Assembly (NCBI RefSeq): GCF_023806485.1
Contig: NZ_JAMSLR010000001.1
Coordinates: forward strand, 62,001-126,000
Length of the DNA stretch: 64,000 nt
From: Thermalbibacter longus
GTDB lineage: Bacteria > Chloroflexota > Chloroflexia > Thermomicrobiales > Thermomicrobiaceae
Direction of reading: 5' to 3'
Part shown: positions 27,212 through 30,319 of the stretch, piece by piece
Layout of the letters: each line of letters begins with the position of its first letter
Numbering within the stretch: position 1 is the stretch's first letter
Notes under the pieces: generated by a model
Told to the model about the DNA's origin: nothing
Databases searched by the model: none
The model's input: only the letters and a program-made list of their open reading frames with translations
Translations under genes and position numbers: made by a program

Positions 27212-28834
27212 TCAGCTCGCCCACCTCTGCAGCGCTTCTTCCCAGCCTTCGACGGTGCCGTTCTTGAACAACACGACGGTCTGTTCCTGGACGGCGCTCT
27301 TGGCACCCTGCGTTGTCCGCTCGCCGGCCACGGCCGGCAGGGCGCGGAGACCAGCGGCCCGGAGTGCCTCTGCGCGGCGCACTGCTCGCTCGACATCGCC
27401 GCGGTCGACCCTAGCCGATATCTCGACGACCAGCCAGACTTCGCCAGTCTCTGGCTGGTACCGCGGAACGCCGGTCACGAGAAGGTCGGCGCGCAGGAGT
27501 TCCTCGGCCGCCCATCGGGGCAGGCGGTCGTCGTACTGGTCGACCGCTTCGCTCGGCCAGACGAGTCGCAGGCGACGCAGCAGCGGGCCGAAGTATGCAG
27601 ATGGGCGCTGGAGGTAGCGCCACTCCAGGCGATAGCCACGGAATTCCGAGCGGAGGTTCGAGAGATCGCGCTCCATCGTGTCGACCCGCGCGATGAGCTG
27701 CTCCAGCCGCTGCTCGGTGCGCACCTGGGCCGTAGCGAGTTCGTCCACTCTCTGGGTGAGCTGCTCCATGCGCACGGTGAGGTCGTCGACGCGGGCGGTG
27801 AGCTGCTCGACGCGCACGGTGAGGTCGTCAACGCGGGCAGTAAGCTGCTCGAGACGCACGGTGAGGTCGTCGACGCGGGCCGTGAGCTGAGCGATCTGCT
27901 CCTCGACCCGAATCATCCGCTGGGTGAGGTCATCGACCCGCGCGGTGAGCTGCTCCATGCGCACGGTGAGGTCATCGACGCGAGCAGTAAGCTGCTCGAG
28001 ACGAACAGTGAGGTCGTCGACGCGGGCGGTGAGCTGAGCGATCTGCTCCGCGACCCGAATCATCCGCTGGGTGAGGGCATCGACCCGGGCGGTGAGCTGG
28101 GCGATCTGCGCCTCGGCCCGAATCATCCGCTGGGTGAGGTCGTCGACCCGGGCGGTGAGCTGGGCGATCTGCGCCTCGGCCCGAATCATCCGCTGGGTGA
28201 GGTCATCGACCCGCGCAGTGAGCTGCTCCATGCGCACGGTGAGGTCATCGACGCGGGCAGTAAGCTGCTCGAGACGAACAGTGAGGTCGTCGACGCGGGC
28301 GGTGAGCTGAGCGATCTGCTCCTCGACCCGAATCATCCGCTGGGTGAGGTCATCGACCCGGGCGGTGAGCTGGGCGATCTGCTCCTCGACCCGAATCATC
28401 CGCTGGGTGAGGTCATCGACCCGCGCAGTGAGCTGCTCCATGCGCACGGTGAGGTCATCGACCCGGGCGGTGAGCTGCTCGAGACGCTGCTCGGTACGTA
28501 CCTGCGCTTGAGCGAGTTCGTCGACCCGGGCGCTGAGCTGTGCTACGCGCTGTTCCGTGCGCACCTGCGCCTCAGCCAGCTCGTCGACCCGGGCGGCGAG
28601 CTGTTCCAAGCGCTGTTCGGTGCGCCTCTGGGTATCCACCAGCTCGTCGACCCGGGCCGTCAAACTTTCCAGGCGGTGCTCGGTACGCAACTGGGCATCG
28701 GCGAGTTGACGAACGAGTTCCGGTAGCTGGAGCAATTCCTCGGTGAGCACGTGGCGGCGAAGCTCAGCGCGCCACTCAGGGTGCTCGCCCAGCATTCGGA
28801 TTAGGTCCTGAAAGCTCTCCAGGCTAGAGGGCAT
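27212..28834 (-). CDS. Repetitive coiled-coil protein with nuclease-like C-terminal domain
   Basis: 540 residues. From about residue 40 to 390 the protein is an uninterrupted coiled coil made of 14- and 21-residue heptad units such as TARVDDLTVRLEQL and TQRMIRVEEQIAQL. The last 150 residues are globular: GYRLEWRYLQRPSAYFGPLLR, then LLRADLLVTGV, VWLVVEISARVDRGDVERAVRRAEAL, a layout like the PD-(D/E)XK-fold C-terminal domain of DUF3782-type proteins, with an acidic pair but Ser in place of the usual Lys. Activity is therefore unsure. It is probably cytoplasmic (no signal peptide). Confidence 0.75.
   Translation of the reverse strand: MPSSLESFQDLIRMLGEHPEWRAELRRHVLTEELLQLPELVRQLADAQLRTEHRLESLTARVDELVDTQRRTEQRLEQLAARVDELAEAQVRTEQRVAQLSARVDELAQAQVRTEQRLEQLTARVDDLTVRMEQLTARVDDLTQRMIRVEEQIAQLTARVDDLTQRMIRVEEQIAQLTARVDDLTVRLEQLTARVDDLTVRMEQLTARVDDLTQRMIRAEAQIAQLTARVDDLTQRMIRAEAQIAQLTARVDALTQRMIRVAEQIAQLTARVDDLTVRLEQLTARVDDLTVRMEQLTARVDDLTQRMIRVEEQIAQLTARVDDLTVRLEQLTARVDDLTVRVEQLTARVDDLTVRMEQLTQRVDELATAQVRTEQRLEQLIARVDTMERDLSNLRSEFRGYRLEWRYLQRPSAYFGPLLRRLRLVWPSEAVDQYDDRLPRWAAEELLRADLLVTGVPRYQPETGEVWLVVEISARVDRGDVERAVRRAEALRAAGLRALPAVAGERTTQGAKSAVQEQTVVLFKNGTVEGWEEALQRWAS
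27720..28490 (-). repeat. In-frame DNA repeats encoding the coiled coil
   Basis: Near-identical units of 42 and 63 bases (14 and 21 codons) recur through this part of the coiled-coil gene, often identical over tens of bases in neighbouring copies. Such similarity at DNA level, not only protein level, indicates recent duplication or gene conversion. All units are multiples of 7 codons, so gains and losses keep both the frame and the heptad phase. Confidence 0.8.
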
Positions 28835-28964
28835 ACGCTATCCTCACCTCCGCTCACGACGATTATACCCGAGTAGATACGCGAAACGGCGGGCCAGGAG
28901 GCGACGAGACCACGATGTCCGCAGCATGCTGGCTGTACGGTTTCGCGGATCGCCGACGCTTCGG

Positions 28965-28972
28965 TGTACAAT
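28965..28972 (+). promoter_or_regulatory. Extended -10 box of a possible RNA gene
   Basis: TGTACAAT ends 10 bases before the closing helix of the structured sequence at 28983-29107. TACAAT recurs upstream of several genes in this window. No good -35 box is seen. Confidence 0.35.
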
Positions 28973-28982
28973 AGCATTGTCT

Positions 28983-29107
28983 CGGGCGTTGGTGGCTGGG
29001 GTAGCTCAGAACCGGCAGGCCTTGGGCCTGGAAAGAGTGCCACCCGTGAATCGCGGGTGGAGGTCGGAGGGCTCCGGAGCCTCCCCCTAGCCGTAAGCCA
29101 GCGCCCG
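28983..29107 (+). ncRNA. Candidate structured RNA of unknown class
   Basis: No protein is plausible here, but the sequence folds by eye into a closed multi-helix structure. Ten base pairs join 28983-28992 to 29098-29107 (one GU), and eight more join 28994-29001 to 29085-29092 (one GU). Inside are three hairpins: 29016-29030 (CAGGCC/GGCCTG), 29040-29060 (CCACCCG/CGGGTGG, 7-base loop) and 29066-29084 (GC-rich, one bulge). This is a four-way junction. It does not match RNase P, SRP RNA, tmRNA or tRNA signatures, nor a riboswitch I can name. A 4-base TTTCTT-type tail follows near 29113. Confidence 0.4.
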
Positions 29108-29175
29108 GGGCGTTTCTTCAGGTCGGGGCGTGTCGCCCAATTCGCACAAGTTCCGGCGATGCCGGCCAACTGGGC

Positions 29176-29204
29176 TTGACACGGCGGGCACGGCGTGCGA
29201 TGAT
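29176..29204 (+). promoter_or_regulatory. Putative argF promoter
   Basis: TTGACA at 29176-29181 and GATGAT at 29199-29204 with a 17-base spacer. It would leave a leader of roughly 140 bases before argF, in which I see no named regulatory element. Confidence 0.5.
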
Positions 29205-29353
29205 TACCGTGCTGGCAAGAGTCCAGCTACGGCATGTAGTCGGTAAATCCTCCGAAAGGGACAGTCACGGATGGGACTCCGGCTCAGGCGCAGGTCCAGC
29301 GTTTCTCTTGGCCCGGTGTGCGGCTGGACTGAGCGTGCCTGGAGGAGGTTCCC

Positions 29354-30319
29354 ATGGCTGTCCCGACGATTACCAAGACCTTTCATCTGCTGACCGACGA
29401 CGATCTGACCCCGGCGCAAGCCACTGCGCTGATCGATTTTGCCGCCCAGCTCAAAGCTGACCACTACGCCGGTAAACCGCAGCATCATTACCTGGCCGGC
29501 AAGACGCTCGCCATGATCTTCCAGAAGCCATCTACCCGGACGCGGGTGGCGTTCGAGGCTGGCATGGCCCAGCTCGGCGGTCATGCGCTCTACCTCTCGA
29601 CCAACGACCTGCAGCTCGGCCGCGGCGAGACTATCGCCGACACGGCACGCGTACTCTCGCGCTATGTCAACGCGATCATGGCTCGCGTCTACAAGCACCA
29701 GGACATTGTAGAGCTGGCAGCATACGCGACCGTGCCCGTCATCAACGGGTTGTCCGACCTAGCGCACCCCACCCAGGGGCTGGCCGACATGCTCACGGTC
29801 AAGGAGCACCTGGGTGGCTGGGCCGGGCGGACGCTGGCGTATCTCGGCTGCGCGAACAACATGGCGCACTCGCTGGTGCTCTCCGGCGCGCTGGTCGGGC
29901 TCAACGTCCGCATCGCCTGCCCGCCGCACTGCCAGCCTGATCCGGCGATCATCGCCCGCGCCCAAGCGATCGCCCAGCAAACCGGCGCGACGATCACCGT
30001 GCTGAGCGATCCCTGGCAGGCCGTCCAGGGCGTGGACATCGTCTACACGGACGTGTGGGTGAGCATGGGGCAGTCGCTGAGCCAGGAGGCGCTGGACGCG
30101 CTCCAGGCCTACCAGGTAACCGAGGAGATCATGGCGGCGGCTGGGCCGGGCGCGATCTTCATGCACTGTCTGCCGATGTACCGGGGGCAGGAGGCGACGG
30201 CGGAGGTGGCCGATGGTTCGCGCTCGGTCATCTTCGACCAGGCCGAGAACCGGCTGCACTTGCACAAGGCGCTCCTAGTCGAGCTGCTCAGCGACGCTGG
30301 GCCGGGCATCTTGAAGTAG
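29354..30319 (+). CDS. argF: Ornithine carbamoyltransferase
   Basis: 321 residues. Carbamoyl-phosphate site FQKPSTRTRVAFE, HPTQGLADMLT, and the ornithine-side HCLPMYRGQEAT are all intact, with DLQLGRGETIADTARVLSRY between. The enzyme joins carbamoyl phosphate and ornithine to citrulline in cytoplasmic arginine synthesis. ATG at 29354 follows GGAGGAGG closely. No other arg gene is adjacent, so it is probably monocistronic from the promoter at 29176. HCLP rather than a transcarbamylase-like variant supports OTC over the acetylornithine enzyme, though that alternative is not fully excluded. Confidence 0.94.
   Translation: MAVPTITKTFHLLTDDDLTPAQATALIDFAAQLKADHYAGKPQHHYLAGKTLAMIFQKPSTRTRVAFEAGMAQLGGHALYLSTNDLQLGRGETIADTARVLSRYVNAIMARVYKHQDIVELAAYATVPVINGLSDLAHPTQGLADMLTVKEHLGGWAGRTLAYLGCANNMAHSLVLSGALVGLNVRIACPPHCQPDPAIIARAQAIAQQTGATITVLSDPWQAVQGVDIVYTDVWVSMGQSLSQEALDALQAYQVTEEIMAAAGPGAIFMHCLPMYRGQEATAEVADGSRSVIFDQAENRLHLHKALLVELLSDAGPGILK

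Follow-up and report, generated by a model that had tools for sequence, protein, structure and literature searches.

A candidate small RNA with a tRNA-like core upstream of argF in one genus of Thermomicrobiaceae

The locus

The window analysed here is the whole stretch of 64,000 nucleotides at C1:62001-126000 of genome G000 (3.63 Mb, 80 contigs), from a bacterium whose family is heat-loving. It carries a conserved RNA element flanked on one side by argF and on the other by a divergently oriented gene for a coiled-coil protein. The features of this interval are as follows.

27212-28834, minus strand: coiled-coil protein gene
28967-28972, plus strand: TACAAT, a putatively active -10 box (sequence and alignment)
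28981-29109, plus strand: whole RNA element, with presumed ends drawn from the conservation of 132 columns (28980-29111) in three genomes
29113-29119, plus strand: T-rich tail following the outer helix, a possible terminator (sequence)
29176-29204: TTGACA-17-GATGAT, argF promoter-like site (consensus match only)
29271-29393: arginine-rich leader ORF of 40 codons, starting MGLRLRRRSS and overlapping the argF start
29354-30319: argF, with both carbamoyltransferase domains matched (Pfam)

The placement of the -10 box before the outer helix (P1) and of the T-rich tail after it suggests an independent transcript of about 130-140 nt, which would probably run from about 28978 to 29119 and stand apart from the promoter-like site and leader of argF. 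This agrees with the original prediction that an RNA headed by its own -10 box could be separate from argF. That prediction had described the box as extended. The box itself is present as TACAAT here and as TAGAAT in both relatives that carry the element (G002 and G003), but the preceding TG occurs in the window genome only, as judged from the alignment of the three genomes. No -35 box was seen for this -10 box, and simple scans for promoters and terminators had no entry at 28967-28972 and 29113-29119, respectively.

The neighboring coiled-coil gene contains long repeats and varies in length among relatives. It encodes 540 aa in the window genome, and the frames at its site encode 416 aa in G003 and 263 aa in G002. 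Up to 14 related matches to the protein are found per genome.

Conservation and distribution of the element

A search of 61 relatives with positions 28940-29353 recovered the element in G002 and G003, which belong to the same genus as the window genome. A 24-base match to G059 in the same search was taken to be due to chance. When 158 genomes of the class were searched (E up to 0.01) with R1, a covariance model made from the three copies without the D- and T-stems described below, the genus copies alone were returned, with one copy in each of the three genomes. A fourth member of the genus has a contig that begins inside the neighboring gene and its sole argF match is weak, and therefore its lack of the element is uninformative. 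A DNA pattern search of genome contigs yielded 16 stretches, of which the model matches only two, both from Thermomicrobiaceae records, and the pattern was not found in viral contigs. The best reading of this distribution is that the element is restricted to one genus of Thermomicrobiaceae.

Comparisons of conservation rest on three close sequences (G000, G002 and G003). Across the element (28980-29111), the window genome is 89-90% identical to the other two, which are 95% identical to each other. For the tRNA-like core described below, the corresponding value for the window genome is 91-93%, and the range over all three genomes is 91-98%. Flanking DNA of the window genome is 35-39% identical to that of the others upstream and 43-49% downstream, and the flanks of G002 and G003 are 67-82% identical to each other. 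Fourfold sites of argF are 65-71% identical between the window genome and the others, and 79% between the other two. Because identity within the element is far above that of its flanks and of the argF fourfold sites, the element looks to be held by selection.

All 45 pairs of the cloverleaf version of the structure are standard pairs in all three genomes. In P1, five of the 12 pairs are variable and all are still paired, including one compensatory change from C-G to U-A. When covariation over the full structure was compared with shuffles, a control that is weak with three sequences, 153 of 500 shuffles did as well. No pair of the acceptor, D and T arms varies in the three sequences, which places these arms beyond the reach of covariation. 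The MFE z-score of 28979-29120 is -5.0, and none of 200 shuffles folds to as low an energy. Thus, the claim of a structured element is borne out by the presence of its helices, by conservation above that of the flanks and by the folding energy, and the pairing is kept in the three close sequences available.

Searches against known RNA families

The element matches no Rfam family at the gathering score, and the four rows obtained at E up to 10 all fall far under their thresholds. Like the kept pairing in the three close sequences, this agrees with the checks set out in the original prediction. Identity with tmRNA was rejected, as the sole tmRNA row over the cut-off lies elsewhere (G000:C12:94003-94358, 166.5 bits). 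Identity with RNase P RNA was likewise rejected, as the RNase P RNA of this genome also lies elsewhere (G000:C3:69789-70141). The latter RNA scores 83.6 of the 100 bits needed (E 1.2e-25), below the class A cut-off, and looks diverged. No Rfam match to the yjdF riboswitch was found at the element.

The YrlA model (RF02553) gave no match at E up to 10 in the 511 bases around the element, and none at the element among the best 7 of 8 rows for the entire genome. The TROVE domain of Ro proteins (PF05731) was found in none of 21 family genomes, including that of the window, and in none of the 14 of these that are at least 90% complete; the control for this search rang in 1 of 14 (Deinobacterium chartae). 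Among the matches listed from the openly licensed literature, no title or abstract opening reports an RNA of this kind from this group.

A predicted tRNA-like core

In the plus-strand order of the RNA, the parts of the element are as follows, where R2 is a covariance model built from the three copies alone with the cloverleaf structure supplied by the analyst.

28981-28992, plus strand: 5' strand of outer helix P1, 12 base pairs with 29098-29109
28994-29001, plus strand: 5' strand of the acceptor-like stem, 8 base pairs, invariant in three of three genomes and aligned by R2 to tRNA acceptor stems
29002-29003, plus strand: UA, equivalent by sequence to tRNA positions 8-9 (position names from tRNA numbering)
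29004-29007, plus strand: GCUC, 5' strand of the D-stem, followed by A14 and G15; invariant pairing with GAGU at 29035-29038, aligned by R2 to tRNA D-stems
29012-29015, plus strand: CCGG in the D-loop, a possible kissing partner, judged from sequence alone, of the T-loop CCGG at 29074-29077
29016-29030, plus strand: hairpin inserted in the D-loop, 6 base pairs and a 3-nt loop, paired in three of three genomes with variation in the loop only
29035-29038, plus strand: GAGU, 3' strand of the D-stem, invariant pairs aligned by R2 to tRNA D-stems
29040-29060, plus strand: anticodon-like arm, 7-8 base pairs, of which two of eight vary with pairing kept
29061-29065, plus strand: AGGUC, variable loop (tRNA 44-48), identical in three of three genomes
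29066-29084, plus strand: T-like arm GGAGG/CCUCC with invariant pairs and a 9-nt loop, GCUCCGGAG, replacing the tRNA T-loop
29085-29092, plus strand: 3' strand of the acceptor-like stem, pairs invariant in three of three genomes and aligned by R2 to tRNA acceptor stems
29093-29097, plus strand: GUAAG, unpaired and invariant between the acceptor-like stem and P1, with CCA absent
29098-29109, plus strand: 3' strand of P1, 12 base pairs with 28981-28992

The original prediction had two closing helices of 10 and 8 base pairs and three hairpins. Both helices are present, although the outer one extends to 12 pairs. The hairpins are found at 29016-29030, 29040-29060 and 29066-29084, but a 4-bp D-stem around the first of these had been missed.

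The strands of the acceptor-like stem are GGCUGGGG/CCCUAGCC, including one G-U pair, and this stem abuts the 5-bp T-stem to give 13 base pairs together. The D-loop carries the inserted hairpin and ends in GG-AAA, and R26 follows the GAGU of the D-stem. Unlike R2, model R1 aligns the D-arm in another register (GCUC with GGCC). This alternative contains one mismatch, and we preferred GAGU for its full pairing and for the R2 alignments. Both CCGG motifs are invariant, and hence their putative kissing contact lies outside what covariation can address. The anticodon-like arm has two or three pairs more than that of a tRNA. Its loop differs among the genomes (UGAAUCG, CUGACAG and CUGACCG) and varies more than any other part of the tRNA-like core.

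At positions corresponding to contacts in the tRNA core, the element carries U-A (8-14), G-C (15-48), R-A (26-44), A-U-A (9-12-23), G-U-G (10-25-45) and C-G-G (13-22-46). Such combinations are usual in tRNAs, and the 10-25 pair is a G-U wobble. The four stems of a tRNA cloverleaf (acceptor, D, anticodon and T) and a class I variable loop can form in all three genomes, and the T-loop consensus, the CCA and a free 3' end of a tRNA are absent.

A role as a working tRNA is unlikely because the 3' end is tied up in P1 and lacks CCA, and because the anticodon loop is unconserved. The variable anticodon loop speaks against decoding, and the bound-up 3' end against charging. The conserved body, consisting of the acceptor/T stack, the variable loop, the D-arm and both odd loops, would fit a protein that reads the shape of tRNA.

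Tests of the tRNA resemblance

Programs that recognize tRNAs agree with the original view that the element is not a tRNA, but that view overlooked an architecture and sequence that are tRNA-like. ARAGORN at default settings calls no gene at the element. The Rfam tRNA model (RF00005) gives no match at E up to 10 in the surrounding 511 bases, and none of its 46 rows for the genome falls on the element. Relaxed ARAGORN was dropped as evidence, as a setting of 80% calls two of the three copies but also 118 of 1000 shuffles.

A cloverleaf score, devised after the element had been seen, equals 36 in each of the three genomes, and the best of 3000 dinucleotide shuffles reaches 30. Elsewhere in the window (4258 segments, both strands), one place scores 30 and none scores higher. 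The 27 tRNA entries examined score 33-43, with class I entries at 41-43.

Model R2 offers a second line of evidence. Among 400 genomes of the phylum (E up to 0.1), it matches only two genes outside the genus, both for tRNA-Gly (31.2 and 27.2 bits) and both aligned in register. When R2 was applied to 43 loci of the window genome, rows 1-19 of 25 fell on tRNA genes, representing 12 of 45 different genes, such that the model misses 33 of the 45 tRNAs. With 14 tRNA-bearing loci that had been chosen as YrlA-model or R2 matches, the first 11 of 15 rows were on tRNA genes. R3, a reversed-sequence control, placed none of its 13 rows in a tRNA, and two rows touch a tRNA by a single base. In one set, model R1, which lacks the D- and T-stems, put the same two tRNA-Gly genes at the top of its list. 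On the tRNAs of the window genome it gave one match only, which is weak (E 0.79).

A whole-genome search of 21 family genomes, including that of the window, with R2 (E up to 10) returned no tRNA. Its rows are the genus copies and three weak outside rows in loci without tRNAs according to ARAGORN. The genome's own tRNA-Val scores 28.1 bits with R2 in a direct search, yet it is absent from these rows, and the first stage of the whole-genome search may have passed over the tRNAs.

Plain alignment to the 45 tRNAs of the window genome gave similar indications. The window copy scores 29.0, versus maxima of 24.7 among 3874 window segments and 23.7 among 500 shuffles. The G002 copy is above all 500 of its shuffles, and the score of the G003 copy (23.4) is equalled by 3 of 500. 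No one tRNA stands out as the source, as Ala(CGC) is favored by alignment and Val(UAC) by model score. Taking these results together, we consider it probable that the element descends from or mimics a tRNA.

Two further observations concern the tRNAs of this genome. It has two genes for tRNA-Phe(GAA) whose bodies differ (loci L071 and L074). A weak tRNA-like match of 21.9 bits, below the cut-off, lies at G000:C78:61172-61234 between tRNA-Val and tRNA-Phe genes, where ARAGORN calls nothing.

Alternative structures and functions

The minimum-energy fold of the element is a rod rather than a cloverleaf in all three genomes, and at 37 C the rod is favored by 6-10 kcal/mol. This raises the alternative that the element is a rod-shaped regulatory RNA that binds RNA polymerase in the manner of 6S RNA, or binds another partner, and that its likeness to tRNA is coincidental. 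The rod also has two pairs changed on both sides versus one for the cloverleaf, with the extra pair closing the anticodon-like hairpin. However, two of the three genomes lose a pair specific to the rod (U43-A89) whereas the cloverleaf loses no pair, and tRNA genes come first in three of the model searches. The Rfam 6S model (RF00013) matches neither the element nor, at E up to 10, any other site in the genome; the vacancy for a 6S RNA would suit a rod and the missing match would not, but this model detected a 6S RNA in just 8 of 14 control genomes, such that a missing 6S RNA means little. We regard the rod as unlikely, although it is the alternative that we take most seriously.

The location of the element invites a different proposal, namely that it is a cis-acting leader or riboswitch for argF, comparable to the tRNA-like yjdF riboswitch. 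The distance from the element to argF downstream is 244 bases, and in both relatives it is found at a near-equal distance and on the same modelled strand. However, the argF promoter-like site comes after the element, in keeping with the original claim that argF has its own promoter further on, and P1 is followed by the T-rich tail. Furthermore, argF has a conserved leader ORF of its own, located between the promoter-like site and the gene. Arginine-rich counterparts precede argF at all 12 family loci, the window's included, where at one locus (L011) the ORF picked by the script starts further upstream and ends early, with the same stretch contained. This ORF looks like a leader-peptide attenuator or a translational sensor for arginine, and no report of an arginine-rich argF leader ORF was found in the literature among the matches listed.

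The leader ORF is a likelier arginine sensor than the RNA element, and therefore the element need not sense arginine. The link to arginine raised in the original prediction gains no support from other genera, where nothing similar to the element occurs upstream of argF at nine of nine family loci, one of which offers no more than about 530 bases of sequence before the gene. Thus, cis-regulation of argF by the element appears improbable.

Another explanation is that the element is a pseudo-tRNA relic, in which a broken tRNA gene drifts without function. The T-loop, the CCA end and the anticodon all depart from tRNA consensus, and the alignment of the window copy to its own tRNAs above shuffles and window segments is consistent with such an origin. 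Functionless drift is very doubtful, however, given a core that is 91-98% identical versus 65-79% for argF fourfold sites, and changes in stems that preserve pairing. Finally, the element could be a true bacterial Y RNA (YrlA) working with a Ro-type protein, in keeping with the shared plan of paired ends and a tRNA-like domain in 90-150 nt (PMC8394870). This is most improbable given that TROVE was found in none of the 21 family genomes, including the 14 with a completeness of 90% or more, that the YrlA model gave no match, and that the T-loop is unlike that of tRNA.

Proposed function and comparison with known systems

On balance, we lean toward an explanation in which the element is a free-standing small RNA that is derived from, or closely imitates, a tRNA and acts outside translation. 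A promoter of its own just upstream would drive the RNA. A 12-bp helix would join both ends and support a cloverleaf core like that of tRNA, in which the acceptor stem has 8 bp, the D-loop contains an inserted hairpin and the T-loop is rebuilt. By analogy with bacterial Y RNA, this module would most likely be offered to a tRNA-binding protein as a tether or decoy, and candidate partners are PNPase or a tRNA-modifying or tRNA-processing enzyme. The occurrence of a YrlA-like plan without Ro is what suggests a tether or decoy.

More tentatively, the element might be the first of a Ro-independent class, in which a tRNA mimic closed by a terminal helix, with an elbow rebuilt from the CCGG kissing contact and the D-loop hairpin, tethers or blocks a tRNA enzyme and has arisen within one Thermomicrobiaceae genus. 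To our knowledge, few cases of tRNA mimicry by bacterial small RNAs are known, and the best known, Y RNA, is tied to the Ro protein. If our explanation is true, a young tRNA-like RNA with the Y RNA plan but without Ro would show that this plan can arise on its own. The element would also illustrate how a tRNA became a regulator inside a single genus, and would indicate a further tRNA-binding partner protein.

tmRNA is an established example of an RNA other than tRNA that carries a tRNA-like domain. The element is unlike tmRNA in being much shorter, and the genome has its own tmRNA on contig C12.

The closest parallel is YrlA (RF02553). YrlA RNAs are 90-150 nt long, their ends pair in a long stem, and they have a domain resembling the D, T and acceptor arms of tRNA (PMC8394870). 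The same source assigns two partners to bacterial Y RNA, with the Ro-type protein Rsr on the end stem and PNPase on the tRNA-like domain. Competitive inhibition of a tRNA nuclease has also been proposed for this domain (PMC7790460). The element resembles YrlA in that its ends pair in a long stem and it has a tRNA-like domain, in a fold that is predicted here. Unlike YrlA, the element has a D-loop hairpin, lacks a tRNA-type T-loop and adjoins argF, and it comes with no TROVE protein found and no model match.

The yjdF riboswitch is presented in PMC9142559 as a four-way junction, a proposed tRNA homologue with a D-loop/T-loop contact that plain sequence searches miss. Like the tRNA-Lys-like yjdF, the element is a bacterial four-way junction RNA that resembles tRNA. 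Unlike yjdF, which is an mRNA leader with a ligand site, the element is probably an RNA in its own right, as judged from its terminal helix and tail and from the promoter-like site that argF has for itself.

A final comparison is with tRNA-Other, a pseudo-tRNA of Bacillus cereus that is known from close relatives alone and has been suggested to belong to a regulatory RNA (PMC3399842). The element is similarly tRNA-like and found in close relatives only, and it is unlike tRNA-Other in that its core is missed by ARAGORN at default settings and sits inside a conserved outer helix.
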